Shown: piece by piece, positions 4,375-27,261 of the stretch | Layout: each line of letters opens with the position of its first letter | Position numbering within the stretch: the first letter of the stretch is position 1 | DNA from: a virus | Virus record (IMG/VR): IMGVR_UViG_3300010334_000182 | Span: 1-31,257 of that record | Length of the DNA: 31,257 nt | Strand: one strand, 5' to 3' | Position numbers and translations under genes: made by a program | The notes under the pieces: generated by a model | The model's database searches: none | Seen by the model: only the letters and a program-made list of their open reading frames with translations | Told to the model about the DNA's origin: nothing

Positions 4375-7300
4375 ATGGCAATTCAAGAAACAATACAAGT
4401 TAATGTACAGTCGAACTTAGCAGAAGAAGAAAAACTAGCCAAAAGTATAAATGCTCAGTTAAGAGCAGCTGCAAACGTTAGAATGAGCGCACCCAGTTCC
4501 GCAAAAATGGCAGCTGCTAACCCTGACGGTACTGCCAGCCCCACTAACTTATCTCGCGGCATTGCTGGTCAAACTGGTGCATCAGGTAGAGACTTTGCTG
4601 CACAAGCTCAAGGCTTGGGCGGGCTTGTGCACGTGTATGCTACTTTTGCCGCTAACATATTTGCTGTATCGACAGCTTTTACAGCACTAAGCAAAGCAGC
4701 GGATACCACAAATTTAATTAAAGGTTTAGATCAACTTGGAGCAGCCAGCGGTCGTGCTTTGGGCGGGGTTGCCAAGGCAATGGTTATAGCTTCAGATGGT
4801 GCATTAAGCTTACGCGATGCCATGAGTTCAGCAGCGCTTGCTAGTAGCGCGGGTATGAACAATGCTAATATGATGCGTATGACTGAAGTAGCTAAAAAAG
4901 CTTCACAAGCGCTTGGTCGTGACATGGCTGACAGTATGGATCGTTTAACAAAGGGTATTGCAAAAACGCAACCTGAATTGCTAGACGAACTTGGCATTAT
5001 GGTTCGTGTAATACCTGCACAAGAAGCTTATGCACGTCAAATTGGTAAAACAGTAAGCAGCCTAACAGATTTGGAAAAAAAGCAAGCTTTTGCTAATGCT
5101 GTGTTGGAGGAGGGTGAAAAGAAGTTTTCGGCTATTAATATTGATGCCAATCCCTACAGTCGACTTTCAGCCAGCTTGATTAATGCTATGCAAAGTGCGC
5201 TAGAGTTTATAAACAAAGGTTTAGGCCCGATAGCTGGATTTTTAGCAAGTAGCCCAACTGCACTAACTGTTGCGCTAGCTACATTAGGTGCAGTATTACT
5301 AAAACAAGCACTTCCTGCACTTGGACAATTTAAAGAAGGCATGCAAAAAAGTGCAGACTTAGCTACAGACCTTGCCAATAAAAGAAGTCTAGCAGCAAAT
5401 GCTGCTAGAAAGGCTGAGTTTACTGCACTACAACAATCGCTTGAGAATGAAGCAGAAATAAAAACTGCTGCAGTTGATAAAGCTGAAGCAGCTGCGCGTA
5501 AAATTGCAGCTGCAAGTAGCTTTAAGCCCAGTAAAGGTGTGCGAGATATTCTGAAAAAAGATATTCGAGATGTAACACAAGATGACTTAGCAAAAATAGA
5601 AAATGTAGCAAAAAGTCAAGAAACTCAGGGCAGAACTGCCCTTGCACAATCTTATAGAAATTTAAGTGTTGCTGTAAAAGAGAGCCAAGCAGCAGAAGCT
5701 GCTTACGATAAACAAATAGCAGAAGGTACAAAACGTTTACAAGAACGTCAAGGCGTCATGACTGCAGCAGGCAGAGCTCAAGCTTTAGCAGATAGAGCAA
5801 ACTTAGCCGCAACAACTAGAGGTATTGCCAGTAAAGCTGCAGAAACTGCGTCAACTAGTGGCTTTTTTGCTGCGCGCAGAGAAAGTAATGCAGCAATAGC
5901 TTTAGCTCAGGCAGGTCCACAAACTAAACAGATAATTACCGAAACTGGAAAGCTTGAACAAATAACTGTGCCCGCCATGAGCAAAATGCGTGGGGCATGG
6001 ACAGGATTTTCAGCTAATATTAGTGCGGCAGGTAGTGCAATAAGCGGTTTTTTAAACTTTCTTGGTCCTTGGTCACAAGCTATTGGTTTGGCAGTTACTG
6101 CTTTTAGTTTTTTAAGCGATGCGCTAAGTAAAAACGGTAAAGCTGCTGCTGAGACTCAAATAGCTTTTGACCAGTTAGCCGAAGCGTCAAAAACAAGTGC
6201 TAATGTTTTTGATCGTCTTCAAGGCTTAGACCCTCTTGAACGTTTGTCTACTCAAAATATATCAGCAAAAAGCACGGCAGTTACTGAAACCGCTACTAGC
6301 ATTGAAAATGCTTTTAAGAAAATAACTAAACAAGCGGAAGATGCTAACTTGTGGGACAAACTTGTAGACACTGCAAAAGCAAATATTGGTTTAGGGTTAC
6401 TAAAAGACAGCTCTACCGAACTAGCTAACGCAACCGTAGAAAGTTTACGTTTAGCAAAAGGCACAGCCGCAGGTGCCAAAGCCGCTGAAGAATTATCAAA
6501 AGCCTTAAATATTGATCCAACTGATAAAGAAGCCTTAAAAAGCGCTTTAGGTGAGAGTCCAAAAAAGTTTTTTGAACTTGGCCCGCAAGTGGTTGAGATT
6601 ATAAAGAAAATGAGCACTGAGCTTAATAAAACCAGTATGGCTGCACAAAACTTTGATGCGGCTATAACAACTGCTAATAAAACATTTGATAATTTATTAA
6701 TTAGTATGTTGCCCACAGACAACGTAGCTAAACTAGGTTTTGAGCTTATTGATGTGGGCAAATCAATGGCAGATGCATTAACAGAGCCAGAACAAGCTAT
6801 GCAAAAGCTTGCCGATATTGCCGCAGACAATCAAAAACTAAGACTTTTTAGCCCAGAGTTTGCTGCTGATATTGTTGCAAATAGCAAAGATGTTGATAAT
6901 AGTATTAATAGAAATGCTAAACTGCTGGCAGCGTATCAGCAAGGTATTAAAGGTCAACAAGACTATATTAAAAAGCTAGCTGAAAACCGTAAAAAACTGC
7001 AAGAAGACGAAGAAAAGTATGGGCCTTTTGCCACAGTTTTGAATAGTCGCGCACTTAGTAAGAATACCGAGGCTACAGCACAAGCAAAACAAGATATTAA
7101 GCAACTGGAAAACGTGTCCGCACCGTTAGTAAAAAATCTAGAACCTTTTATTAAAAAATTTACTGAAGAACAAGATCAGGCCTTTGTTAGAGGTGCTAAA
7201 TATGTTCAAGATAGTATCGGCGATGGGTTTGCCAAAGCAGCTATTACAGTTAGCAAAGCATATGCAGAAGGTTTAGGTGGCACAATTGCTGGAATAGAAG

Positions 7301-12732: not shown

Positions 12733-12736
12733 CATA

Positions 12737-12763
12737 AAGCCCTGCCACAAGCAGGGCTTTTTT
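12737..12763 (+). terminator. Intrinsic terminator after the tape measure gene
   Basis: AAGCCCTGC (12737-12745) and GCAGGGCTT (12751-12759) form a perfect 9-bp stem around CACAA, ending in a T run at 12758-12763, four bases after the TAA stop. Confidence 0.93.
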
Positions 12764-12783
12764 GTGCCATTTAAAAATTATGC

Positions 12784-12812
12784 TTGACTTGTGGTAGCTA
12801 AACAGGTATAAT
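12784..12812 (+). promoter_or_regulatory. Sigma-70 promoter for the tail-tip unit
   Basis: TTGACT (12784-12789, one mismatch), a 17-base spacer and TATAAT (12807-12812), 21 bases after the tape measure terminator. The expected start near 12819 leaves a leader of about 27 bases carrying AAGG at 12832-12835 before the ATG at 12846. It would drive the closely packed genes from 12846 to 26209. Confidence 0.9.
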
Positions 12813-12845
12813 TAAGGAAAATATTATTTACAAGGTAATAAAGTT

Positions 12846-14462
12846 ATGAGTTTAGTCACACAACCCTGGTTAGAAGATACTAACAGTATAAGATGCTTAT
12901 TAGTCGAATTAAAAGTATTAGACTATGGGAGTACTTACGGCGGTACCAATGGAAACGGCTATGCAGGAACTGTTTACCTTGGTACTACAGGATATAACTT
13001 AGGTGATTCTACTATAAGTTTTTTGCCTTACTTAACAAGCGGCTTCCAAACTTCTCAAAATATGTCACTAGACGGCAGTTTAAGTTTAACTTTTGGCGAC
13101 TTAGAAGTTCAAAATCCAAATGGAGATTTTGACAGCTGGCTAGACAACACAAAATTCATTTGGGCAAATCAATCAGTAAAAGTTTATTTTGGCGATCCAC
13201 GATGGAGCTCAACCTCAATAGATGATGTACGTTTAAACTTTGAATTGATATTTGATGGTATTATACAGGAAATTGATAGCAAATCCAGAGAAACTGTAAA
13301 CTTAAAAATAGCAGATAAACTGCAACGATTGAATAGTCCATTATCAGAAGATAAAATTGGTACTACAGGCACATGGTCGGGCGTTCAGCCAAATAGCGAC
13401 ACCATTAAACCTTTAGTATTTGGTGAAGTATTTAATATGACACCAGAGCTAGTAGACCCTAGTACCTTGCAATATCAGTTTAATGCTACCACAACTGAGT
13501 TGGTTATTGAAATCAGAGACAACGGTGTGCCTATATACACAGATAGTTCTGTATTTAATGCAGCTATTAATTTAGGTACAAGGCCTACAGGCGCTACAAT
13601 TGATTTAACTACTGGCAAGTTTACATTGCCAACACCGCTTGCAGGTTCAGTAACCTGTAGCGTACAGGGTGTAAAAAACAGTATAAACTTAAGCTCAGGC
13701 GCTTTACAAACTGGTACATATAAAAACAATATTGCCAATTTGATTGCACTTATTGCTATGCATTATGGTAATGCTAATTTGCGATTATCAGTAGCAGATT
13801 TAGATTTAACAAATTTAGCAAATTTTGAAAATTCAAACCCACAACCCGTAGGTTACTTAGTAACAGACCGAACAAATGTGCTTGAAGTATGTCAAAGTTT
13901 AGCAAGTAGTGTGGGTGCACAAATTTACATGTCTCGTACAGGAAAACTGCAAATTCTACGATTAGCAGTGCCTAGTAGTGCCACAACAGAAATAACAGAC
14001 AATGACATTTTGCACCATAGCTTAAGCATAAGCACAAAAACTGATGTTGTTGCTGGCAGCAAAATAGCTTACAGTAAAAACTGGACTACGCAAACTGATC
14101 TATTAACAAATATACTGGCTCCACATAAAGAAATATTTGCCACAGATTGGTATACAGAAACTGCACTTGATTCTACAGTAAAAAGCACATATAAACTTTA
14201 TGCAGATCCACCGCAAAAAGAAACTTATCTATTACAACAGTCAGATGCACAAACAGAAGCAGCAAGACTTCGTGATTATTTTAAAACGCCGCGTATAGTA
14301 TATAAGTTTACTGGTATAAGTAAATTGTTGTTGTTAAACTTAGGAGATGCTGTACGTTTAACACACAATAGATTTGGTTTAACAACAGGTAAATTTGGAC
14401 AAATAGTCGGTTTAAATCAAAATTGGGTAGCAGGTACAGTTGACGTGGAGGTATTAATCTAA
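12846..14462 (+). CDS. Tail tip / baseplate hub-like protein
   Basis: A 538-residue protein directly downstream of the tape measure terminator and promoter. Residues 70-165 have the character of a tail hub domain (VKVYFGDPRW at 111-120, IFDGIIQEIDS at 135-145, IADKLQRLN at 155-163), residues 335-372 read TNVLEVCQSLASSVGA and RTGKLQIL, and the C-terminus ends with LGDAVRLTH followed by strands of a small beta domain. From memory this set recurs in phage tail proteins related to the T4 gp27/lambda L-type hub, which closes the tube at the tip and receives the tape measure C-terminus. The start is supported by AAGG ten bases upstream. The stop overlaps the next start (TAATG). Assignment to hub rather than another tip protein is inference. 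Confidence 0.65.
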   Translation: MSLVTQPWLEDTNSIRCLLVELKVLDYGSTYGGTNGNGYAGTVYLGTTGYNLGDSTISFLPYLTSGFQTSQNMSLDGSLSLTFGDLEVQNPNGDFDSWLDNTKFIWANQSVKVYFGDPRWSSTSIDDVRLNFELIFDGIIQEIDSKSRETVNLKIADKLQRLNSPLSEDKIGTTGTWSGVQPNSDTIKPLVFGEVFNMTPELVDPSTLQYQFNATTTELVIEIRDNGVPIYTDSSVFNAAINLGTRPTGATIDLTTGKFTLPTPLAGSVTCSVQGVKNSINLSSGALQTGTYKNNIANLIALIAMHYGNANLRLSVADLDLTNLANFENSNPQPVGYLVTDRTNVLEVCQSLASSVGAQIYMSRTGKLQILRLAVPSSATTEITDNDILHHSLSISTKTDVVAGSKIAYSKNWTTQTDLLTNILAPHKEIFATDWYTETALDSTVKSTYKLYADPPQKETYLLQQSDAQTEAARLRDYFKTPRIVYKFTGISKLLLLNLGDAVRLTHNRFGLTTGKFGQIVGLNQNWVAGTVDVEVLI

Positions 14463-17400
14463 TGGCAACATTAATAAACTCAAGAGATAAAGCCTTACAA
14501 ACTGCACGATATAGACGCGGTGCAACACAAGTAACACTAACAGCGTTAGAAGGTGCTTTTATAAAGCCTAAAAATGGTGCTGCCATAACTCCTAGTAGTA
14601 TAAAAATTACTGCAACAAAAAATAATGTATTTACTGATGCTGCAGTTTATAAATGGGAGTATGCACTAAGTACTAAGCCTGATACTTATACTACAGTAAC
14701 TGATGGTACAAATGCAATAACAACTCCTGAATTAGAAATAACTAGTTCTACAATGTTGTCGATTATAGCCTCAGCTAGTGAAATTTACTACAAATGTACA
14801 GTTAGTGAAAGTAAGCTGGATACTGCTAGCTCAATATTTAAAATAATTTATAGTAAGGAAAGTGACGATCCTATTACTATAAATATGACAAAAACTAATG
14901 TGTCAGTACAGTGTGATCAATATGGTTCACCGAGTAGCTATGCAGGTACAGGTACAACAATCACAGTAACTCGTGGCAGTACACTATTAAACTATAATAG
15001 TATTGGTACAGCTACGGCAAATAGTTTTACAGTTACTACTGCAGCAGATGAAAATCGTACACTTGGTGGAACTACACATAGTACAGCTAATAGCTATGTA
15101 TTAGATGACTTAACTGCGTTAGCAACAGATCAAAGCAGTACTATTTTTACTATTACTGTATATGATGGTAATATGATAGCCACAAACACGTTTTCAAGAA
15201 CCTTATCTTATACTAAAGTAAAAAATGGTTTAGTTGGTTCAGATGGTAGAAGATATTATTTACTATTAAATACACTTGTTTTAGCAAAAAGTAGTAGTAG
15301 TGCAGATATAAGTGGAACACATACACCTAGTAGTATAACTGCTACTGGCAAAAGAATAATTGGTTCTGGAGATCCTACCAATTATGGGTATGTTACAATT
15401 ACAGATAATTCTGGTACCGAAAGTGATCCAAGTCAGTATACAAAAACTTATAATATAGCAAACAGTTACACAGCAGCTTCTTATACAGTAAGACTTTATG
15501 ATACTGCTACTAAAACCAACTTATTAGACAGTCAAACTGTACCTGTTGTATATACAGGCACTAGTGGTACTAGTGGTACTAGTGCTATAAATTTAGTATT
15601 ATCAAATGATAACGTTAGTGTGCCTACAGCAAGCGATGGTAGTGGTGCTGTATATACTGGTACAGGCACAGATATTGTAGTTTATGAAGGTAGTACACAA
15701 TTAACTTATGATGCTAGTGCAACTCCTGCTCAAAGCACTTGGAAGATAGCTAGCGTAAATGCTACTAATATAACTGCAGGAACTTATGCTACAAAAATTC
15801 TTCAATTAAATGCTACTGCATTAACAGTATCTGCAGGTAATGCTACTCTTAGTTATGCTGTCCAAAGTTCATCTCCTTATAGGGTAGGTCAAACAGTTAC
15901 ACTAGCAGGATTTAGTCCTACACAAACTAACGGTTCATTTACCGTACTAACTTGCACAACAACTCAACTAACTTTTGCCCTAACTGGCTCATATACGGTA
16001 ACAACACTAGGTACAGTGTCAGGGTCTGTTAATACTACACAAACAACTACTGTACCTGGATCAATGACAGATGATACTGCAAGTATTACTTATAATATAT
16101 CTGGTGTGACAGCAGCTGCTACAACTTTTACAATTAGTAAAACTCAAAGCTTTAAAAAGCTAAAAGCAGGCAGCGTTGGTGTAGACGGAAAAAGAGCCAT
16201 TATATTAAATGCATATAAATGGGCAAATACTACGACAAGCGTGCCTGTTCAAGCTTTTACATATACTTGGGCTTCGGGAAAAATAGACCCTTATCCCGAA
16301 GGCTGGACTTCAAGTGCGGCTGCACCACCTGGTACTGGTTATACTCTTTATCAACTGAACTTAACTGTCAGCGATTCAGCTACTACAGCTACTACAAGTG
16401 CAAATTGGAGTGCTAGTACACTAAATATAATTGGTTATAGACAAGACGGCACTATAGGTGAACTTAGTGCCTACACTAAAACAGCTTACATTACCCTAAC
16501 CACAGCAACTCCTCCAGGAACTCCAACAGCTACCACAGGTGCTACCAGCTTGCCCGCTGCTGTTGGTACAGTAAGCTGGACAAGTGCAAGTCCTGACACT
16601 GTAGCAGATGGAAGTTATGTTTATATTAGTACTGGCATTTATGGTTCAACAAGCGATAAAGTTGTATGGGGAGCACCTTACTTAAGTTACTTTAAAGTAG
16701 GCAGTTTAAGTGCAATTAGTGCTAGTTTAGGTGTAGTAGGAGTATCTACCACAGGCAACATACATAGCGGTACAGGTGCAAATGACACAAAAACTTATGG
16801 TGGTAATAATGCAGGATTTTTCTTAGGATATGATGGTAGTGGTGCTGGTGCAGCATATAAAATGGATGTGGGCAGTTCAACAAGTTACTTACGTTTTGAC
16901 GGTTCAAAAGTAAGTGCCACAGGCATGAGCATTTATACTGCAGACAATCAAGATATTTTAACTTTAGCAGGTGGACAAGAGTGGACAACTAATGGTAATA
17001 TAACACTTTATAGTGCTGTAAGTTTGAAAAAAACTGGCAGTACTAATAGTTATGATGCTTGGGCCTATGGAAAACAATTTTATTCAAAAGGTGCGGCTGT
17101 AAGTTTTCAAGCAAAAGAAGCTGTAAATCGTCAATTTGAAGTAGGTTTAAAGGCTAGTACTACACCTGGCACAAATGCTACTATTGATTATGGTATACTA
17201 CTGAGCACTTCTGGGGCAGTATTCGCTTGTGTTGGTAGTATAGCTCAGGGTACTATAGCTGATAGTTATGCACTTACTGATCAATTTTTAGTTGCTTATG
17301 ATAATAAACAAATAACTTATTACGTTAATGGTGTACTAAAATATACATATACAACTGGTGTAGTTGCAGATAAAAGTTTTGTGCCAAAAATTTCTTTTTA

Positions 17401-17902
17401 TACACAACAAGCATACGCCACAGCAGTTAAATTTCAACCGTGGAGTGGAGTTGGTGCAGATGGTGCTACTGGACCAACAGGTCCGACTGGTGCTACTGGA
17501 CCAACGGGACCAACAGGGAGTCAAGGTAACACAGGGGATGCAGGTCCTACAGGCACCCGTGCAGCAGCTACTTGGCTTAGTGCAAGTAGCTATAGTAGCT
17601 GGCCTAATAGTGGAGCTGAAACTGCAGCAAACAGTTATTTTTTGACTAATTTTGGTGGAAAAATAATTGGTGATAGGGCTACGATATTTAATAGTAGTAC
17701 TGGTAAAGGAGAAACTAGAAGTTGGAATGGTACTTCTTGGATTCCTGTAAGTGCCTATATTGACGGTAATTTACTAGTAAGTGGTAGTATAACTGGAGAC
17801 GCTTTAGCTGGAAATATTGTAACTGTTGGTCAACGTATAGTATCCAGTGATGGATTATTTGTAATTGATTTAGCTAATAAAACTATAAGTATAAGTGTTT
17901 AA
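14462..17902 (+). CDS. Central tail fibre / tip attachment-like protein with collagen-like stretch
   Basis: A 1146-residue protein with GGAGG at 14447-14451 before ATG 14462, one base overlapping the hub stop. It is built of repeated beta domains. Two short hinge motifs of the form KxGxxGxDGxR (252-263 and 568-578) separate Ig-like segments, as in gpJ-type tip proteins. A GTSGTSGTS linker is at 366-374. A module with VGQTVTLAGF and NGSFTV lies at about 452-522. A lectin/LamG-like sandwich (about 845-995) contains a conserved FLVAYDNKQITYYVNGV strand pair. Eleven Gly-X-Y triplets (998-1030) follow, and the end (DGNLLVSGSITGDALAGN) resembles the C-terminal region of central tail fibres. It is likely exposed at the tip and may bind host surface glycans; the lectin-like call is from pattern only. 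It shares a reading frame with the next ORF, with only its TAA and two sense codons before that ATG. Confidence 0.7.
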   Translation: MATLINSRDKALQTARYRRGATQVTLTALEGAFIKPKNGAAITPSSIKITATKNNVFTDAAVYKWEYALSTKPDTYTTVTDGTNAITTPELEITSSTMLSIIASASEIYYKCTVSESKLDTASSIFKIIYSKESDDPITINMTKTNVSVQCDQYGSPSSYAGTGTTITVTRGSTLLNYNSIGTATANSFTVTTAADENRTLGGTTHSTANSYVLDDLTALATDQSSTIFTITVYDGNMIATNTFSRTLSYTKVKNGLVGSDGRRYYLLLNTLVLAKSSSSADISGTHTPSSITATGKRIIGSGDPTNYGYVTITDNSGTESDPSQYTKTYNIANSYTAASYTVRLYDTATKTNLLDSQTVPVVYTGTSGTSGTSAINLVLSNDNVSVPTASDGSGAVYTGTGTDIVVYEGSTQLTYDASATPAQSTWKIASVNATNITAGTYATKILQLNATALTVSAGNATLSYAVQSSSPYRVGQTVTLAGFSPTQTNGSFTVLTCTTTQLTFALTGSYTVTTLGTVSGSVNTTQTTTVPGSMTDDTASITYNISGVTAAATTFTISKTQSFKKLKAGSVGVDGKRAIILNAYKWANTTTSVPVQAFTYTWASGKIDPYPEGWTSSAAAPPGTGYTLYQLNLTVSDSATTATTSANWSASTLNIIGYRQDGTIGELSAYTKTAYITLTTATPPGTPTATTGATSLPAAVGTVSWTSASPDTVADGSYVYISTGIYGSTSDKVVWGAPYLSYFKVGSLSAISASLGVVGVSTTGNIHSGTGANDTKTYGGNNAGFFLGYDGSGAGAAYKMDVGSSTSYLRFDGSKVSATGMSIYTADNQDILTLAGGQEWTTNGNITLYSAVSLKKTGSTNSYDAWAYGKQFYSKGAAVSFQAKEAVNRQFEVGLKASTTPGTNATIDYGILLSTSGAVFACVGSIAQGTIADSYALTDQFLVAYDNKQITYYVNGVLKYTYTTGVVADKSFVPKISFYTQQAYATAVKFQPWSGVGADGATGPTGPTGATGPTGPTGSQGNTGDAGPTGTRAAATWLSASSYSSWPNSGAETAANSYFLTNFGGKIIGDRATIFNSSTGKGETRSWNGTSWIPVSAYIDGNLLVSGSITGDALAGNIVTVGQRIVSSDGLFVIDLANKTISISV
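17453..17557 (+). repeat. Collagen-like Gly-X-Y stretch in the central fibre
   Basis: Eleven triplets beginning GAD GAT GPT GPT, mostly GPT/GAT, within the 14462 gene. Such runs are known in phage fibres, where they form trimeric stalks; here it links the lectin-like sandwich to the C-terminal domain. Confidence 0.85.
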
Positions 17903-17908
17903 AATATT

Positions 17909-20900
17909 ATGTTGTTTCAAGATTTAACTAATAGCATTACTCCTCAAGCTGCATCAGAAACCAGTACTTTTCAGGCTACTGGTTATAGCTGGTATGGGAA
18001 CTACTATAATATATATATAGCTTTTGTTAGTGGCAGTAGGCCTGCTATAGGTACTACTATTACGGCAACTGGTACAGTAAACGGTGTTTACTATGGCTCA
18101 CTACTTATATCAGGTGACTGGACTAATAATGGTATATATTACTTAAAGGTATATGGTAAATTAAGTGTTGAACCAACTATAAATACCACATTAACTTGTA
18201 CATATACTTCAAATAAAACTTATAGTGAAGCAATTTATACAGGATTACCTAATTATAGTTATATTATTGGTTCTTATTATAATCCAGCAGGCAGGTATAG
18301 CTCACTTACCACTAATATTTGGGCTAGAGGTTCGGGAACTACCCCAACAGCTTATCCACAAAATTTAAATTTATATAGCCAGTATTCTAATTTTCAACTA
18401 AATAATGATTTAACTGGTAACTATATAGGTAATAGTTTATACGAACTTGATATTATATTTGACAGACCAAATAGATTTAGTACTAGAAGCTATTTAAAAT
18501 ATATAGAAAACGGAACTTCTATTGGAATATATAGAACATATAATGATCCTACTTCAAAACCTATTGGTTCATATTCTGTTCCATTAGCAAGTAAATATAC
18601 TTTAAGTGTAGTAGATAATATCACAAATGCTATAATTGTAGATGAAACAGCCCCACGTACTTTTTCAACCAGTAGCAGCGGGCAACTTACTATTAGTACT
18701 GATATATATGCTACTGCATCTTCTGGTACTATTAAAGGAACAACATTTAATGCAGGAGGAGTTGTATCAGGAAGCTTTGGTGTAGGTATGTTACTAGATG
18801 GTACAGGTGTTGTAACAGGTACATATATTACAGGAGGTAGTGCACCTAATTGGACTGTAAATATTAGTCAATCAATCTCATTAGGAATAAACATTTCAGG
18901 TGATTGGGTCCCCACTAATCCCACTAATATTTGGAATGGAAGTAATAGGAATGATTATATATTAAGAATATATTCTTACGATGATCCTTACAGCAGCCCT
19001 AAAAAAATTCTTAGATTAAGGGCGGAAGATAGGCTTTTTGCTAATGTACTTGGTTATCAGGTGCCTGCAAGACTTTGGATAAATAGAAATACATATACTT
19101 ACCCAGTTACACTAGATGGATCTTTAATATTAACAAACTCAACCTCAACAAATACTAATAGTTATGAAGATACAATTGTAACTTGTTTAGATACTCCTAA
19201 AATTACTGGAATTACTGCTGCTCTTAGTAGTAATGATAAATACTATTCACAATTAACTTATATGGGCTATAATGATCAAGATAGTGGTTTAAAATATACT
19301 ACTTCAAGTCTTAGTACTTACCCTATAAGTTGTTATGAAGGTATTATATTTGGTACTGGTAAAACATCTTTAACTGTACTTTTAACTATTTGGGGTACTA
19401 CTACTATCCCTTATCCTGGTATGGTAATGCAAGATATTGATAGTAGTTCTGTAAGTTCAGTATCAATTAAAACTGTATCCTATGACACGAAGACCAAACG
19501 TTATAGTTTTACTTTATCAAGTGCGTGGACAGGTGGTAATAGAGTTAAGTTTCTAAATAAAATGACTGGTCAATATAAAAAGTATACTAAAGATCCAGCA
19601 AATATTTTTCCAATTGGGTATTCAGATGGGATTCCTTATCTTGTAAGTAATTCATATTACTATAAACATGCTCTTGAAAACAGATTTTTAAGCCCAGGGT
19701 TTTTTACAATACTACCTTTATACTCGGTAAAAAAATTAGATGGAACATTAATAGCTACTTTTAGAGATACTACATTATTTACACAAATAGATTCGCCTAC
19801 AACTGCTCTTAGTAGAAATTATTATGCACGAGAAATAAGTACTACGACAAATTATAAATGGTGGACAGTTAGCAGTAGTTCAAGTTATACGGTAATACCA
19901 CCAACTAAGTCTGCTAGTATTTCAAATACTAAAATTAAAGAATTTTATTATACATATGGTCCTTGTCTAATAGAGTTTACTGCTGTAATTTTAAAAAGAG
20001 AAATAACATATGCCAAACAGGTTACTACTCCCAGTCCTTACAGTGATACATATTCAGAATCAGGAGTTGTAATTGGACCACCTACACCTGAATCTGATTA
20101 TCCTCCTTATTCCGATAATAAGGGATATACTGAAACTGAAAGTACTGAAATTATAAGAATTAAAGTACAAGAAACAGTAGTACCCATGATTACACCAACA
20201 GTAAATTTAATAAGACCTAGCAGTTTAATTGGATTTAATACAACTGATTCAACCTACAAAATTAATTTTAATGCTGCCCGTATAACCACTAAATATAAAG
20301 GTAGTAATAGTATACTAATAGAAAAAATTGAGACTAGTGGTAACACAATAACTATTACTAATCATGGTTTAAAAAATGGTCAACTTATTCGTTATGGTTC
20401 AAATGGTACAGTAGCCAAAGGTTTAAAAAATAATAACTATTATTATGTGGTTTATTATAGTGCTAATACGTTTGGGCTAACCACAGATTCTACCGTAATT
20501 GACATTACATCAACAGGTAGTGCAGGAGATCAATATATTTATTTAGATAGTGATAGATATATTTTAACCTCAGAGCTTAGCAAAATAAAAGATAATGCAA
20601 TATATTTTGATAAACCTCATAACTTATCAACAGGCGACAGAATTTTATATTTAGCACCAACAAATAGTGGTGTTTCCAGCTATATTATTAATGTAACACA
20701 TTATACTTATTATATTGCAGTTAGAGTAGATGATTATGCAATAAAACTATTAGATACTGAAAATAATCCTATTACAATAACTTTTATTGCTGAAACTCCA
20801 AAAATAACTATTGGTGTATCTAAAACTAGCAATAATAGTGTTTATTGGAATGGATCATATATTATAGATTCTACTAAAGATTTAGTAACAATTAATCTTA

Positions 20901-23614
20901 ATTGGAGTTATACTGAGTACAAAGATTATATATTTGATATTACTATCAACAGTTCAGTTTACGTAATTTATGAAATTACTAGCAACGGCAATTTTAGTAA
21001 AGATGATATTATAAAAACAACAATACTTGATCCTTATAATCTTACTAGGACTAATTATGGTTCAAGTTGGGGCACGGTTAGTGGCAGTATTTTTCCATAC
21101 ACCTCAACAAAATTAACTATAAAAGTAAGCTCAGCATCACAAGGTTATTATGGTAATTATACTGGAACTTATAATATTTATGTTAAATTTACTAAATTAT
21201 CAGGTGATTATACTGGTATTTTTAATTTTGCTAAATTACCTGATACAATACAAGAAGTAACTGATAAAAATGCAGGTTATATAGGTATAGGTACAGAACC
21301 TGCAGTGCAAGCTGCACCTTCAAAAACTTTATCTAATTTAACTGGAACTAACCTAAATGTAAAATTATATGCAGATAAAACAATAGCAACACAACTTAGT
21401 AGTATAAATATTCCTATTATAAGTAATTTAGTTGATACTAACGCTGTTATTTTCCAAAATAACGCAGCTTTTTACAGCTTAACTGAAGTAGGTTTTTTAC
21501 CAACTGGAGCAGACATAAAACATTATGGAATACCTCAATCTAACAACAACTGGAATTATCCTCAGTATAATACAACTGATACAAAATTAAATAATAAAAG
21601 TACACATAGCACTACTAATGGTGATATAACAATTAATACCAAAACAAGTATATTCGGTATTAGTAGTAGCCCTGCTAATATAATTCTTGCCACAGCTCAT
21701 GGATTATCAACAGGTGCACCTGTGCGCGTTGCTATCCCAGGTCTAACTGGATTTAGTACTACAAACTATAATTTTATTACTAAAGTGAAAAGAAATAGTC
21801 AAGGTACTGGCAGTTTGTTAGGTACAGCTAGTGAGCATGGCTATGTTACTGGTGATATAGTTATGTATCAAAAAGGTTATGATACTTCAACTGCAACTTA
21901 TTTAAATTTATTAGATGTATTAATACCTGGAAAAAAATATTACGTTATTGTTGTAGACACAACTTGGTTTAAGTTAAGTAATAGTCCAGAAGAAGCCGCA
22001 GCAGGTAAAGGTATTACTTTTAATAGTTTTGGTAAATTTGGAACACAAATAGTAGATGGTGTTGATACTAAAACTGCGACCATTTACTTTAAATATGCAC
22101 AAACTGAGGCTGCTGATGCAGTTAATTATTACTATGGCACAGTAGAGAATCCAGTCAGTGCTATTTACAACCAAACAACATATGACAAAACATTAGTCCA
22201 GGGTTTTGATTCTAGCACTTTTAGGTTTAAGTACCCAGGACCTGATAATTATAGTCAACAAGTTTATACTACTTCAACAGGTAACACTTTAGCTACATCA
22301 ACTTTTGATAATATAATAATAGGTTATTTGGATAAATTAGATAGTTTTCCAAACGGTATAAATTGCTACGATACTTACTATGTAATAGTAGTTGATAAAG
22401 ACCAAATTAGGCTTGCTAAAAGTTATGAAGATGCTGTGGCAGTTACTCCAAATTATATACCTATAGAACCAGCTGCTACAGGTACAACAGCTTATATTTA
22501 CACAGGTGTTATAGCGCCAAAAGCACTTACTAGCACTACTCCAGTTATAAAAGATGCACTATTACTAGGAACGCAAAATCCTGTTGCTTTATCAATTTGT
22601 TGGAGTTATACACTAGGTACCGCTAATACATCTGCTAATAACATTGATGGTTTTATAGTTTATGTTAATACTGTTGGTGTTGCAGGTAGCGATCCAGTTA
22701 ATGATAGTAGGTATATTGTGCCTTATGATGACTACTATACATCTGGTAAATATAATATAGTTATATATAATGTACGTAATACGGATTCTCGTATTTATGT
22801 TGCTGTTGCGGCTTATAGATATAGAAATCACTACGACTACAGACATGATGTTTTTTTTGGTACAGATGCTCAAGAGTTACAAATAAGTACATTATTAAAA
22901 GACGATATATATGCCCCTACAAGTACTTCCGATGCTAGTGTATTAACACTGGCTGATGATACTACATATACTACAATTAAAAGATTTTTTATACCAAAAA
23001 CTAAGTTAGCTTATAATGGAAGTCAAGGTTATACTACTCCTCAAAGTACTTTGACTATTGATGGAAATACGGGAACTTTAACTTTAATAAAAAATTCAGT
23101 AAATGTAACTGATCAATTAAAATCAAAATATACAACTCAAACTACTGCAAGTTATTATATTCCTTATCTTTCTACAAGCGGAACTTATCAATATATAGCT
23201 TCAAAGCAAACTATAAATTATAGTAGTAACACTGTATTACAAACTTATATATATAAAACTGATTATAAAAAGCCTTTATTTATAAAACTTATACCAAGTA
23301 ATTTTACAAGTATATCTGGTATTACTTTAAATACTGGTATTACTGCTCCTGTAGTTATTAATAACGTATCTCTTGATACACCTACTATTGCATCAGGCGG
23401 AGGTAATATTAGTATAACACAAAAAGTAATTAGTATAGGACCAACAATTGTACAAAGTATAACTAATAATATAACTAATAGTTTAAGACTATTAATACCT
23501 GTAATAGATAGTAGTACTAATGCAATATCTGTTGCTGAAATTTATTATCAAGATAAAGACACTGAATTATCTAACCTTAATTTTACTACTGTTATACAAG
23601 TATTAGGAACATAA
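17909..23614 (+). CDS. Giant 1901-residue tail-associated protein of unknown role
   Basis: Not recognised as a named family. ATG 17909 lies six bases after the preceding stop and has no Shine-Dalgarno sequence; it is in the same frame as the upstream fibre gene, so re-initiation or stop read-through is possible. The protein is unusually rich in Tyr, Ser, Thr, Asn and Ile, with little predicted helix. Segments seen: a module SSGTIKGTT...DGTG...NISQS (271-325); a Pro/Tyr linker (705-740); HGL/HNL-type beta modules at 813-880 (NHGLKNGQ, YYYVVYY), 895-960 (PHNLSTGD), 1255-1300 (AHGLSTGA), 1307-1375 (EHGYVTGD, KKYYVIVVD) and about 1470-1520 (YYVIVVDKDQIRLA); and a fibronectin-III-like stretch (1558-1650). 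No enzyme motif was seen. Position in the tip/fibre unit suggests a large extended virion surface protein, perhaps a fibre or baseplate component. Confidence 0.6.
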   Translation: MLFQDLTNSITPQAASETSTFQATGYSWYGNYYNIYIAFVSGSRPAIGTTITATGTVNGVYYGSLLISGDWTNNGIYYLKVYGKLSVEPTINTTLTCTYTSNKTYSEAIYTGLPNYSYIIGSYYNPAGRYSSLTTNIWARGSGTTPTAYPQNLNLYSQYSNFQLNNDLTGNYIGNSLYELDIIFDRPNRFSTRSYLKYIENGTSIGIYRTYNDPTSKPIGSYSVPLASKYTLSVVDNITNAIIVDETAPRTFSTSSSGQLTISTDIYATASSGTIKGTTFNAGGVVSGSFGVGMLLDGTGVVTGTYITGGSAPNWTVNISQSISLGINISGDWVPTNPTNIWNGSNRNDYILRIYSYDDPYSSPKKILRLRAEDRLFANVLGYQVPARLWINRNTYTYPVTLDGSLILTNSTSTNTNSYEDTIVTCLDTPKITGITAALSSNDKYYSQLTYMGYNDQDSGLKYTTSSLSTYPISCYEGIIFGTGKTSLTVLLTIWGTTTIPYPGMVMQDIDSSSVSSVSIKTVSYDTKTKRYSFTLSSAWTGGNRVKFLNKMTGQYKKYTKDPANIFPIGYSDGIPYLVSNSYYYKHALENRFLSPGFFTILPLYSVKKLDGTLIATFRDTTLFTQIDSPTTALSRNYYAREISTTTNYKWWTVSSSSSYTVIPPTKSASISNTKIKEFYYTYGPCLIEFTAVILKREITYAKQVTTPSPYSDTYSESGVVIGPPTPESDYPPYSDNKGYTETESTEIIRIKVQETVVPMITPTVNLIRPSSLIGFNTTDSTYKINFNAARITTKYKGSNSILIEKIETSGNTITITNHGLKNGQLIRYGSNGTVAKGLKNNNYYYVVYYSANTFGLTTDSTVIDITSTGSAGDQYIYLDSDRYILTSELSKIKDNAIYFDKPHNLSTGDRILYLAPTNSGVSSYIINVTHYTYYIAVRVDDYAIKLLDTENNPITITFIAETPKITIGVSKTSNNSVYWNGSYIIDSTKDLVTINLNWSYTEYKDYIFDITINSSVYVIYEITSNGNFSKDDIIKTTILDPYNLTRTNYGSSWGTVSGSIFPYTSTKLTIKVSSASQGYYGNYTGTYNIYVKFTKLSGDYTGIFNFAKLPDTIQEVTDKNAGYIGIGTEPAVQAAPSKTLSNLTGTNLNVKLYADKTIATQLSSINIPIISNLVDTNAVIFQNNAAFYSLTEVGFLPTGADIKHYGIPQSNNNWNYPQYNTTDTKLNNKSTHSTTNGDITINTKTSIFGISSSPANIILATAHGLSTGAPVRVAIPGLTGFSTTNYNFITKVKRNSQGTGSLLGTASEHGYVTGDIVMYQKGYDTSTATYLNLLDVLIPGKKYYVIVVDTTWFKLSNSPEEAAAGKGITFNSFGKFGTQIVDGVDTKTATIYFKYAQTEAADAVNYYYGTVENPVSAIYNQTTYDKTLVQGFDSSTFRFKYPGPDNYSQQVYTTSTGNTLATSTFDNIIIGYLDKLDSFPNGINCYDTYYVIVVDKDQIRLAKSYEDAVAVTPNYIPIEPAATGTTAYIYTGVIAPKALTSTTPVIKDALLLGTQNPVALSICWSYTLGTANTSANNIDGFIVYVNTVGVAGSDPVNDSRYIVPYDDYYTSGKYNIVIYNVRNTDSRIYVAVAAYRYRNHYDYRHDVFFGTDAQELQISTLLKDDIYAPTSTSDASVLTLADDTTYTTIKRFFIPKTKLAYNGSQGYTTPQSTLTIDGNTGTLTLIKNSVNVTDQLKSKYTTQTTASYYIPYLSTSGTYQYIASKQTINYSSNTVLQTYIYKTDYKKPLFIKLIPSNFTSISGITLNTGITAPVVINNVSLDTPTIASGGGNISITQKVISIGPTIVQSITNNITNSLRLLIPVIDSSTNAISVAEIYYQDKDTELSNLNFTTVIQVLGT

Positions 23615-23615
23615 T

Positions 23616-24392
23616 ATGGCTGCTACCGAAAGAATAAAAATAACACCAGACTATATAATTGCAAAAAATGCGGTTGGCACAGTAACTTATAGTGCGGGTA
23701 CTCCACCCGCTGATGGTTCAATAAACTTTCCAGCGTACTTAAGAAGTAATAGTACTAGTAGTATAAATACAGACTATGATATATACTATAATCAAGTTGC
23801 ACCACTACCTTATCCAGAGCTTAATACATGGAAAACAATTAGTACAATAAGTGGTAGTATATTTAGTTTAATTGCAGCACCTATAAATAGTACTACAACA
23901 GTAGTTAATACTAGTTTAGTTGAGCCTGGAACTTACGTTATTGTACCAACAGTTTGGTATATAGAAAGTCCAGGTACTACTTCTGATTTAAATACAAGTA
24001 GTAGATTTTCTACAACCAATATTCAAGATCAATTTAAATATGAAATTAAACTTAATGGTATTGTAATTGATAGTTTTTATGTAAGCCGTTATGAAACAGA
24101 TACCAAAATTCTTTGGATAGGACCAACTGGTCCTGCTGATAATTATGGCCTAGATAGTGGCGGGTTTTACATACCAGGACCTTATTCTGTAAAAATTAAT
24201 TATGGTATGACAAATCCAGACAGCGTAAGCTTAACAAATCCTGCCAGTTATATTAGTGATGCATACTCTACAAAAACACTTAGTATAACACCAGTTGCTA
24301 ATGGTCCAACAATTGCAGACAGTTGGACCCGTGGAACTGTAAAAATTTTATATTATTCACGTGGTTATTTAGGCATGAGGTATACAAAATGA
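23616..24392 (+). CDS. Uncharacterised tail-unit protein (258 residues)
   Basis: Starts at ATG 23616 one base after the previous stop, with AGGA at 23605-23608 as ribosome binding site. The protein is beta-rich and polar, with no signal peptide, membrane segment or cysteine pattern. Visible segments are MAATERIKITPDYIIAKN at the N-terminus, a WYIESPGTTSD loop in the middle and YEIKLNGIVIDSFYVSRYE followed by WIGPTGPADNYG. It overlaps the next gene by ATGA. Its role is unknown; cotranscription with hub and fibre genes suggests a small virion tip component. Confidence 0.6.
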   Translation: MAATERIKITPDYIIAKNAVGTVTYSAGTPPADGSINFPAYLRSNSTSSINTDYDIYYNQVAPLPYPELNTWKTISTISGSIFSLIAAPINSTTTVVNTSLVEPGTYVIVPTVWYIESPGTTSDLNTSSRFSTTNIQDQFKYEIKLNGIVIDSFYVSRYETDTKILWIGPTGPADNYGLDSGGFYIPGPYSVKINYGMTNPDSVSLTNPASYISDAYSTKTLSITPVANGPTIADSWTRGTVKILYYSRGYLGMRYTK

Positions 24393-24910
24393 TTGATATA
24401 TCATCATCAGGTATTAAAATAGTGGCAGAAGGTCAACAGATTCCTGAACTTACTGGTACAACACAATTAACTACTTATTTAACAACAGCTAGTGGAAATT
24501 GTACATTTACTGCAAATTCTGGTAGCTATCGTCAAATTACAAATTTAAGTTATAGTACGGTTACTATAGCTGGAAAAAGTTATAATACTTATCAGTCAAA
24601 TTTTACCCATTTTTATGTAATCTACATAACACCTACTAATTTGCCTACAAATAGCTCAATTAGTGTGTTGTTAAATAAAAAGTTTCAACTGTGTATGGGA
24701 CTGCCTTATTTAGTAGAAAAAGATGCTAATGGATATAAATTTACAAAATACGATATTTTAACTGCCAGAATAGTCCCAGGTAGTCCAAGTTATGTTGAAT
24801 TTCAAGCATATGATGCTTTAAATTTACATAGTTTAAACCCAGTTGCGCAAAGTTCAATTAGCTTTAGTTGGACTGCACATACTTATTATTATAAAAATTA
24901 TACTTATTAA
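24389..24910 (+). CDS. Uncharacterised tail-unit protein (173 residues)
   Basis: The open frame reaches back to 24323, but the start is placed at ATG 24389 in the ATGA overlap with the preceding gene, because the upstream extension lies wholly within that gene and has no supporting start signal. The product MIDISSSGIKIVAEGQ... is polar and beta-rich. It has a central FYVIYITPTNLP strand pair and KKFQLCMGLPYLVEKDANG, and it ends in a Tyr-rich tail. There is no recognisable domain. Composition resembles its two upstream neighbours, which supports a shared structural assembly. Confidence 0.6.
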   Translation: MIDISSSGIKIVAEGQQIPELTGTTQLTTYLTTASGNCTFTANSGSYRQITNLSYSTVTIAGKSYNTYQSNFTHFYVIYITPTNLPTNSSISVLLNKKFQLCMGLPYLVEKDANGYKFTKYDILTARIVPGSPSYVEFQAYDALNLHSLNPVAQSSISFSWTAHTYYYKNYTY

Positions 24911-24914
24911 AATT

Positions 24915-25133
24915 ATGGATTTATCAAATAAACAAGTCACAATTAAATCATTAATAAATAACTCAATACCTGAACCCGAAACTGTAGTAACTGTGATTAT
25001 TTACGAAATTGTATCAACAGGTATTAAAAAAAATGTGGGTGAGTATGATATTACTTTAAAAAGTATATTATACTATGATCTGCAAGACCCTCAACTGATG
25101 CAAGCTGTACTACTGCAACTTGCTGAAATCTAG
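24915..25133 (+). CDS. Small uncharacterised tail-unit protein (72 residues)
   Basis: Start chosen at ATG 24915, four bases after the previous stop; the longer open frame (from 24843) would lie inside the previous gene. No clear Shine-Dalgarno sequence, so coupling to the upstream gene is likely. The protein MDLSNKQVTIKSLINNS... has one beta-rich half (TVVTVIIYEIVST) and an amphipathic C-terminal helix (DPQLMQAVLLQLAEI). It ends with the only TAG stop seen in the window. Function is unknown. Confidence 0.55.
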   Translation: MDLSNKQVTIKSLINNSIPEPETVVTVIIYEIVSTGIKKNVGEYDITLKSILYYDLQDPQLMQAVLLQLAEI

Positions 25134-25141
25134 GAACAAAA

Positions 25142-26209
25142 ATGGCGGCAAATAATTTAAAAGTAATTTATGATAATGTAATAGATTATGGTACTACCAC
25201 AGTTTCAGCAGATAGTGTTGCAGGCACATCTTATGCAGCAGCAAATCTTAAAAAAGACGCAAAAAGCCAAACTTGGCGCAGTAATAATTCAAAAACTGCT
25301 ACCTTAACAGTTGGCTTTGGCTCAGGCACGTTTAGTGGATATATCACAGGTACAACACTTGTGGTTACAAGTGCACCTACCATCACACTAGCACCAAATC
25401 AAGTTATTACAGGTGGCAGTATTGCAGCAGGTACTTATATTACAAGTTTTGGCACAGGTACTGGTGGTACGGGTAATTATGTAGTCAATACCAGTCAAAC
25501 TGTGGGCAGCAGTCAATCACCTATTACTGTAACTGCTGCAGCTACAAAAGTTTTAAGTGGTGTGCTTTTAGCATTTACCAACTTAACTAGTACAGCTACA
25601 ATTAAAACTACTGCCATAAATGTAATTGCAGGTGTAAACCCCAGCGCATTGGGTGATGTACTGGCAAGACCGTGGACAGACACAGCTTGGGACAGTACAT
25701 TTTTGCCAGCCAACAGCAACAGCTACAGTTATGGTGGAGGAAATTATGCCAGAACTTGGTTTAGCAGCGACGTAACTTGTACTGGACTTACTATCGCTAT
25801 CACAGATACAGCTAATACCAACAGCTATCTAGAAGCAAGTAGACTGATAGTAGGCAAGTCTTGGAGTCCAAAATACAATACAGAATTTGGCATAGAAGTT
25901 GCCGTAAAAGATTTAAGTAGTCAATCAAGAACTGAAAGCGGTGATTTAATTACCACCCGCGGTGTACGTTACAAAACTTTAAATTTCAACTTAAATTGGT
26001 TAACATACACAGATCGCACAACTTTTGTAAATTTACTAAAAACTAGTGGTTTAAGCAGGCCATTGGCAGTTAGTTTGTTTCCAAATAATAGTGATGACTG
26101 GGATGCTGAAGGTTTATACCAAATATACGGAAAATTAACAGATACAGCAGCTGTTACACACCCAATGTTTACTGTGTACACAAGTTCAGTAAGCATAGAA
26201 GAAATATAA
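25142..26209 (+). CDS. Minor / distal tail protein with inserted beta module
   Basis: A 355-residue protein with AGGA (25132-25135) overlapping the previous stop and ATG 25142. Residues 45-58 and 138-157 look like adjacent strands of one sandwich (SKTATLTVGF and KVLSGVLLAFTNLTSTATI). They are separated by a 75-residue Gly/Thr module (about 60-133: SGYITGTTLVVTS, GTGTGGTGNYVVNTSQTV). The C-terminal half contains RLIVGKSWSPKYN, SGDLITTRGVRYKTL, a Trp/Asp region and LYQIYGKLT. From memory this half matches a minor tail protein found near the tips of several siphoviruses. It may occupy a distal-tail position, binding the hub or fibres. It is the last gene before a terminator. Confidence 0.55.
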   Translation: MAANNLKVIYDNVIDYGTTTVSADSVAGTSYAAANLKKDAKSQTWRSNNSKTATLTVGFGSGTFSGYITGTTLVVTSAPTITLAPNQVITGGSIAAGTYITSFGTGTGGTGNYVVNTSQTVGSSQSPITVTAAATKVLSGVLLAFTNLTSTATIKTTAINVIAGVNPSALGDVLARPWTDTAWDSTFLPANSNSYSYGGGNYARTWFSSDVTCTGLTIAITDTANTNSYLEASRLIVGKSWSPKYNTEFGIEVAVKDLSSQSRTESGDLITTRGVRYKTLNFNLNWLTYTDRTTFVNLLKTSGLSRPLAVSLFPNNSDDWDAEGLYQIYGKLTDTAAVTHPMFTVYTSSVSIEEI

Positions 26210-26239
26210 AAATAGCCTCCATTAGGGGGCTATTTTTTT
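26210..26239 (+). terminator. Intrinsic terminator ending the tail-tip unit
   Basis: AAATAGCCTCC (26210-26220) and GGGGGCTATTT (26225-26235) form an 11-bp stem with one G-T wobble and an ATTA loop, running into seven T (26233-26239). It begins one base after the TAA stop of the minor tail protein. Confidence 0.93.
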
Positions 26240-26242
26240 AAC

Positions 26243-26271
26243 TTGACTGATTTTTGCTAACATGGTATAAT
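26243..26271 (+). promoter_or_regulatory. Sigma-70 promoter for the fibre unit
   Basis: TTGACT (26243-26248, one mismatch), a 17-base spacer and TATAAT (26266-26271), only four bases after the terminator. The -10 is preceded by TGG (TGn extended form). The expected start near 26278 leaves a leader of about 58 bases, ending with a strong AAGGAG at 26322-26327. Confidence 0.9.
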
Positions 26272-26335
26272 AGTACCAAAAATATGTATAACATTTTAAA
26301 TTTAAATACTAAATTGCTGTCAAGGAGTACATCAC

Positions 26336-26677
26336 ATGGAAATAACAGACCCATCAAATATATCCCAGTGGCTTACGGCAGCTTTTTTGGCTGTAGTTGG
26401 ACTAGCTATGGGATTGCAAGTAGTAGTTAAAAACTGGAAAGCAAATAGTACAGAATCAGCTTTATTAAAGATGATGCATGATGAATTAGAACGTATGAGT
26501 GCGCAAAACTTAATACTAAGCCAGGAAATTGGCAAATTGCAAGCCGAACTAGTAAACTTAAGCAATCAACTTAGTGAACTAACTAGTGAAAATACTAAAC
26601 TGCGTGTTGAAGTCAGCAACTTAAATACTGAAATTACCAGACTACATGGTATTATAAAAACAAAGGCGGTAGTATGA
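26336..26677 (+). CDS. Small single-pass membrane protein with long coiled coil
   Basis: A 113-residue protein with a strong ribosome binding site (AAGGAG, 26322-26327). Residues 12-31 (WLTAAFLAVVGLAMGLQVVV) form one hydrophobic segment. It is followed by basic KNWK and then a heptad-rich helix (about 42-108) with many Leu/Ile at a/d positions (LSQEIGKLQAELVNLSNQLS). No signal peptidase or lipobox motif. Charge distribution (acidic N-terminus, basic side after the segment) predicts N-terminus out and coiled coil in the cytoplasm, opposite to an inner-membrane spanin. Possible roles are a lysis-related factor, a membrane anchor or an assembly protein; none is proven. It is first in the unit behind its own promoter and overlaps the next gene by ATGA. 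Confidence 0.7.
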   Translation: MEITDPSNISQWLTAAFLAVVGLAMGLQVVVKNWKANSTESALLKMMHDELERMSAQNLILSQEIGKLQAELVNLSNQLSELTSENTKLRVEVSNLNTEITRLHGIIKTKAVV

Positions 26678-27261
26678 CTGATGCAGTAAAAATAAATTAT
26701 AAAATTATGCAAGGCAATACTTTTTCAGAAACACTACGCTGGGAAAGCGGTGAAAAAGTATATAAGCCTATTACTGCAATAACACAAAGTGCTCCACTAA
26801 CTCTTACTAGTACAGCACACGGCATACCACCACAATGGCGTATTAAAATTACAAACGTGGTAGGCATGACCGACATTAACAACAGTGATATATATAGACT
26901 GGGCGAACCTACTACAGCTAATGTAATAACTATTAATGACATTAACAGTGTAGGTTACCGTGCTTATACAAGCGGTGGTATACTAGAATACAATAAACCT
27001 GTTGATATGACAGGTTACACTGCAAAAATGCAAATTAGACCAAATGTAGATAGTAGTACATTAATTTATGAAATGACTACTAGCAATGGTGGTATTACAA
27101 TTGATAATACAACTAAAAAGATAACTTTACTTATTCCTGCAACTGTAACTAGTACATTTAATTTTACAACTGCAGTTTATGCACTTGAAATTTATGCAGG
27201 TACCACAAGCTTTGTGTTAATTTATGGCAGCATGGGATTAACCAAAGAGGTTGTAAAATGA
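26674..27261 (+). CDS. Fibre-associated tail protein with inserted AHG module
   Basis: A 195-residue protein with AAAGG at 26662-26666 and ATG in the ATGA overlap. Residues 1-32 (GNTFSETLRWESG) and 108-195 (PVDMTGYTAKMQIRP, NGGITIDNTTKKITLLIP, YALEIYAG) make up a domain that I recall as a widespread small phage protein encoded just before tail fibres. Between them, residues about 34-106 form a separate module (STAHGIPPQWRIKITNV ... GYRAYTSGGILEY), of a type often seen in phage and bacterial surface proteins. Its function is not established; adjacency to the fibre suggests a fibre-attachment or baseplate role. Both ends overlap neighbours by ATGA, which indicates tight coupling. Confidence 0.6.
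   Translation: MTDAVKINYKIMQGNTFSETLRWESGEKVYKPITAITQSAPLTLTSTAHGIPPQWRIKITNVVGMTDINNSDIYRLGEPTTANVITINDINSVGYRAYTSGGILEYNKPVDMTGYTAKMQIRPNVDSSTLIYEMTTSNGGITIDNTTKKITLLIPATVTSTFNFTTAVYALEIYAGTTSFVLIYGSMGLTKEVVK

Follow-up and report, generated by a model that had tools for sequence, protein, structure and literature searches.

Predicted small beta modules of two probable sequence families appear to be mobile inserts in the virion proteins of a long-tailed phage

Several tailed phages carry Ig-like domains (Big_1, Big_2, FN3), among them those of lambda gpV, T5 pb6 and SPP1 gp17.1. They are small beta domains on unrelated virion proteins, promiscuous between carriers and dispensable in several phages. 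Weak adhesion by these domains has been proposed, not proven (PMC5717097, PMC8718954). In the major tail protein of phage YSD1, domain2 is inserted after helix alpha-1 on the outer face of the tube, where it folds onto the outer sheet of the neighbouring subunit (PMC8718954). More generally, a survey of RefSeq phages described domain mosaicism, in which fragments are common to otherwise unrelated phage virion proteins (Smug et al. 2023, PMC10684548). The modules described here likewise are small beta domains common to unrelated virion proteins. They differ from the Ig-like domains in lying in internal loops, whereas the latter sit at the C-termini of gpV, pb6 and gp17.1, and in being FCCH-like or of the GTI type. 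As the first-pass annotation had supposed, they are not classical Ig repeats: no Ig-like Pfam model (Big_1, Big_2, I-set, FN3) matches either the modules or the whole carrier proteins of the window.

The window is the whole IMG/VR record IMGVR_UViG_3300010334_000182 (31,257 nt). It covers the tail genes of a long-tailed phage: a tail terminator, a tube protein, a long protein of the tape-measure type, fibres and further tail proteins. No close relative was found among 50,697 phage records, and the nearest relative is the IMG/VR contig 3300027734_000056. At least five virion proteins, each of a different kind, carry modules of about 60-80 residues in their loops; proteins and modules are listed here with their coordinates (L numbers denote homologous loci).

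1395..3383, plus strand: carrier 1, tail tube protein of 662 aa resembling T5 pb6, with a single site that holds three modules (phrog_3575; profile against T5/DT57C tube, E 8e-53; model against 5ngj, E 1.7e-14)
1749..1958, plus strand: tube module A, TYYV style (HMM 1.9e-16; missing in L020-L029)
2010..2258, plus strand: tube module B (middle), GD/VGQ-like style (hhalign to VGQ family 40%, E 3e-4)
2283..2495, plus strand: tube module C, TYYV style, in the window's tube only (53% identity to module A; missing in all homologues found)
14462..17902, plus strand: carrier 2, central fibre, 1146 aa, with a collagen-like stretch close to the C-terminus
15812..16024, plus strand: fibre module VGQTV...NGSFTV (54-63% identity to the modules of unrelated fibres; missing in the close relative L030)
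17909..23614, plus strand: carrier 3, 1901-aa protein (relative of ~1757 aa in L030)
18701..18883, plus strand: GTI module of the 1901-aa protein (HMM 1.2e-11; missing in the L030 homologue)
20336..20506, plus strand: HGL module 1 of the 1901-aa protein (HMM 5.1e-20)
20588..20779, plus strand: HGL (HNL) module 2 of the 1901-aa protein (HMM 2.8e-16)
21818..22018, plus strand: HGL (HGY...KYYV) module 3 of the 1901-aa protein (HMM 4.8e-17)
22295..22447, plus strand: HGL module 4 of the 1901-aa protein, partial or divergent (TYYV half; HMM 3.9e-12, profile positions 17-53 of 59)
25142..26209, plus strand: carrier 4, 355-aa protein, phrog_8610 (homologue without module, ~279 aa, in L031)
25313..25516, plus strand: GTI...SQ module of the 355-aa protein (HMM 5.1e-22; AlphaFold2 model all-beta, pLDDT 76)
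26674..27261, plus strand: carrier 5, 195-aa protein, phrog_1084 (homologue of a KPP25 structural protein, PDB 26dk chain M, E 6e-31)
26767..26988, plus strand: HGL module of the 195-aa protein, E1-FCCH-like (Pfam E1_FCCH E 0.0024; profile against E1 93%; missing in the ACP17 and DC31 homologues)

The interval that the first-pass annotation had assigned to the shared modules (4731-26993) leaves out the tube gene with its three modules. The open reading frame at 24323-24910 was rejected as the 195-residue carrier, which is the frame at 26674-27261. The former is also listed with 195 residues; it has a TTG start and overlaps the preceding gene, and its true start is probably an ATG about 20 codons inward. 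Two further observations concern the window at large. G+C content is about 0.28-0.33 across positions 18000-25000 (the 1901-residue gene and the genes after it), compared with 0.34-0.42 elsewhere. The 1161-residue fibre-like protein (27258-30743) has a longer homologue in the relative L030 (L030:12045-16580, an open reading frame of 1512 aa), and scanning with the module HMMs returned none of the modules in it.

Iterated HMM searches were run over fetched viral loci, each seeded with single modules of the window. The three styles distinguished at first reading (TYYV/HGL, GTI...SQ and VGQTV...NGSFTV) are all present above chance, and they probably amount to two sequence families. The TYYV/HGL modules, which the first-pass annotation had already grouped, form one family by profile comparison across tube, 1901-residue and 195-residue proteins: hhalign gave 97.8% for the tube against the 1901-residue protein, 95.4% for the tube against the 195-residue protein and 97.1% for the 1901- against the 195-residue protein, and none of 40 column shuffles attained these within-family scores. 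Deep alignments settled HGL/TYYV and suggested the placement of VGQ. The VGQ family comprises 33 domains, some of which start with HGF or HNL and are apparently intermediate to HGL, and it matches HGL/TYYV at 63% (E 7e-5). Module B of the tube, left unclassified at first reading, is by profile closest to the VGQ style, and both it and the VGQ module are probably a branch of the HGL/TYYV family. The GTI style, noted earlier as common to the 355- and 1901-residue proteins, held up as well: searches from either seed converge on one set of ~165 domains (167-171, spread over about 111 open reading frames, the set being nearly identical from both seeds). The idea of one family embracing all three styles fails at GTI, whose profile reaches at most 7% against the other families (hhalign). 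GTI is thus a separate sequence family, predicted to be all-beta, and no entry for it was found in Pfam or NCBIfam.

Comparison with known domains points to the FCCH barrel of E1 enzymes (E1_FCCH, PF16190; PDB 2lzj/2v31). The HGL/TYYV profile matches 2lzj with E 2.9e-4, and hhalign of the 195-residue protein's HGL module against E1 gives 93%; on these profile matches, HGL/TYYV is a distant relative of the E1-FCCH barrel. The relationship holds for HGL/TYYV only, as the GTI and VGQ profiles have no significant hhalign match to E1. Unlike HGL/TYYV, the aligned E1 sequence lacks the conserved YY motif. The 195-residue protein scores 18.3 and 19.3 bits against E1_FCCH, under the Pfam cut-off of 29.5 bits, and the carriers have no ThiF/UBA matches that would indicate an E1 activating enzyme context. 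A match of the HGL profile to PDB 26dk was set aside as circular, because KPP25 is in that alignment; the 195-residue protein's own match to 26dk is not circular.

For GTI, an AlphaFold2 model is all-beta with seven strands (pLDDT 76, pTM 0.63). Its best match among solved structures is a 124-residue chain from an entry for the Arthrobacter phage Bridgette (TMq 0.61, prob 1.00, E 0.07), and several weaker matches are to E1 structures (TMq 0.46-0.57, with E values from about 0.9 upwards). A common barrel-type fold for GTI and FCCH is possible on this model, if weakly supported. The model also has weak fold matches to 4hiz and 3ju4 of the endosialidase beta-barrel (PF12195), and 3 of 23 HGL/TYYV members match PF12195 below threshold (best E 7e-4), the first member scoring 16.8 bits against a Pfam cut-off of 35 bits. 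Unlike those systems, the window has no endosialidase, and a literature search for a ligand site on the endosialidase barrel turned up nothing. For the binding of glycans or mucus that the first-pass annotation had suggested, the sub-threshold resemblance of these HGL/TYYV members is a weak hint. Conserved residues of the modules are mostly structural Gly and Thr, with few aromatics. Because the GTI consensus has a single near-invariant aromatic, no clear glycan platform is visible in it.

The tube protein has both the tube fold and sequence homology to T5 pb6. Its insertion site lies right after WNALL and is arranged HGL-B-HGL in the window. The same site holds HGL-B in L017/L018, module B alone in L020, L021, L023, L024 and L027, and nothing in L022, L025, L026, L028 and L029; it is likewise empty in the T5-like Vibrio phage VspSw_1, so that one site carries 0, 1, 2 or 3 modules across homologues. 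The carrier of L020 is about 81% identical to that of the window, yet two of the three modules are missing. Tube modules share 41-60% identity compared with 76-84% for the carrier, and thus diverge faster. Fragment rows were misaligned in the tube alignment and were left out. The tube tree has open forks, and the changes along it may be gains or losses. Since module-free tubes occur naturally, the comparison suggests that the modules are dispensable for assembly and infection.

Relatives without the module at the same site exist for all five carriers. In the fibre, the VGQ stretch is missing in L030, and matches of this module to unrelated fibres fall mostly within residues ~449-523. The 355-residue protein has a homologue without the GTI module in L031, and the L030 homologue of the 1901-residue protein lacks the GTI module and retains the HGL modules. 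Homologues of the 195-residue protein in Acidovorax phage ACP17 and Limnohabitans phage DC31 pass directly from ...W..G.P.V to VDLTG/VNLTG, between which the window and KPP25 proteins have the module. This module is stable throughout a clade, where it is more like an integral part. A 309-residue homologue of the same protein (L014:3921-4850) has about 107 extra, helical-looking residues within its HGL module, either a nested insertion or an assembly chimera.

Module edges defined by empty sites roughly agree with those defined by homology to unrelated carriers, and from such sequence comparison the modules are inserts in their carriers. Their GC3 is close to that of the carriers and so gives no hint of a very recent transfer. 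One might instead regard the modules as integral to each carrier family, their likeness reflecting convergence of Thr/Ser/Gly-rich beta sequence. Such a composition is able to inflate matches, and the lack of significant profile similarity between GTI and the other families fits this reading. We consider it exceedingly improbable, given the module-free homologues of all five carriers, which contradict the idea of modules integral to each family, the failure of every shuffled-column control and the rough coincidence of match and insertion edges. The modules are almost certainly mobile inserts.

Beyond the window, the carriers are diverse. With modules excised and looser clustering for all families, the unrelated carrier groups number at least 20 for GTI, 9 for HGL and 8 for VGQ (a first clustering gave 25 for GTI), the abundance of HGL/TYYV being a lower bound; 29 proteins carry mixed families. 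Annotated GTI carriers are virion proteins: the head closure protein Hc3 (P22 gp10-like), a phrog_3287 virion protein, tail sheath, minor head protein, a phrog_376 tail protein and fibres. A further GTI carrier group is a neighbour family of ~325 aa (phrog_12985). The P22 gp10-like carriers have arrays G, GG, GGG, GHG and GGGG in one region. Searched against a viral structure library, the GTI model matches an HK97 major capsid protein and two collagen-repeat proteins of the giant virus Indivirus, A0A1V0SCQ2 and A0A1V0SDM6 (51% and 29% identity), the latter hinting at transfer between viral realms. The initial description of the carriers as tail proteins holds for tube, fibres and sheath and is too narrow, as GTI also occurs in head-closure, minor-head and, by structure-library match, major capsid proteins. 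Repeated acquisition of mobile modules, proposed at the outset, is borne out by the empty sites in all five carriers and the many unrelated carriers; presence on unrelated carriers together with absence from close carrier homologues places the modules among promiscuous virion accessory domains.

In contrast to the mosaicism surveyed in RefSeq phages, a typical GTI module was found in only two of the 50,697 phage records, both from a spring metagenome. Single window modules gave no tblastn match to these phages, probably in part owing to low-complexity masking. At least 280 GTI loci were found in viral contigs with two peptide patterns; a single pattern returned 8 confirmed loci from 257 Gb of cellular genomes. 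Cellular genomes thus seem to carry GTI rarely, an indication only, since the two counts come from different pattern sets. Contigs filed as bacterial (Sphingomonas, Rhodocyclaceae, Nitrospira and others; L141-L148) also have GTI modules and probably stem from prophages or from viral contigs within MAGs.

So broad a carrier range, with tandem arrays varying in number, might arise from near-neutral spread, in which coding stretches that resemble one another recombine and the repetitive Thr/Gly-rich barrels they encode are tolerated rather than favoured. This seems quite unlikely to us, as the GTI modules of unrelated carriers still share ~40-50% identity and one strict motif, with frames and domain edges intact.

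Where the modules lie on the particle bears on what they may do. In the tube model (pLDDT 61.8), helix alpha-1 spans residues 98-105 and the insert begins at about residue 112. On this moderate-confidence model, the tube agrees with YSD1 in the position of its insert, between alpha1 and beta4: in both, a beta domain follows helix alpha-1 of the tube fold. YSD1 carries a single domain and the tube here 0-3 modules of two styles, and the likeness is one of position. Because domain2 of YSD1 sits on the outer face at this point, the tube modules would be displayed on the outside by analogy, and for the modules in general we infer that external display is very probable.

The same correspondence feeds the main rival explanation, a structural role in which the barrels would pack against adjacent subunits and lend the particle stiffness or stability, in the manner of YSD1 domain2 (PMC8718954), with no outside ligand. 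The head-closure, sheath and minor-head carriers suggest roles unconnected with receptor contact, and the Bridgette match of the GTI model is in line with this. A needed interface is hard to fit with module numbers that vary among relatives whose carriers are 76-84% identical, and we regard a structural role as rather unlikely. Whether the modules are adhesive or purely structural is, taken by itself, evenly balanced in our judgement.

The explanation we favour overall, with moderate confidence, is that mobile barrels are inserted in frame, displayed, and act like Ig-like accessory domains. Turnover, promiscuity, tandem mixing and in-frame insertion emerge directly from the comparisons, as does, in the tube, divergence faster than the carrier. 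The modules would be small autonomous beta-barrels of two sequence families, one E1-FCCH-like (HGL/TYYV, probably with VGQ) and the other GTI. They would presumably enter virion proteins by recombination, in frame and at loops that tolerate insertion, and comparison shows that gain, loss and tandem arrangement leave the carrier intact. From the model and the YSD1 precedent, tube modules would hang off the loop after helix alpha-1, many copies lining the tail exterior. We conjecture that displayed modules adhere weakly and multivalently to polymers of the cell surface or the environment, as proposed for Ig-like domains, and that module identity at a given site matters little, hence the fast turnover.

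The principle of phage domain mosaicism and the promiscuity of Ig-like domains are already known; the GTI and FCCH-like families look new as interchangeable virion inserts, and a search of the open literature (covering few subscription papers or preprints) found no paper on FCCH-like domains in phages. Tentatively, and with doubt somewhat outweighing confidence, the two kinds of barrel may together make up a general repertoire, as yet unnamed, of virion inserts that can replace one another and are common in uncultivated viruses. It would serve as a second Ig-like system, on fibres and tubes as well as on sheaths, necks and heads, and would extend to giant viruses. If the proposal is true, a small number of mobile barrel families could account for many Thr/Gly-rich stretches now listed as unknown in environmental virus proteins, and the natural series of zero to three modules at one tube site would be a ready experiment on the function of accessory virion domains. 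The Ig-like picture would then take in head and neck proteins and a fold other than Ig.
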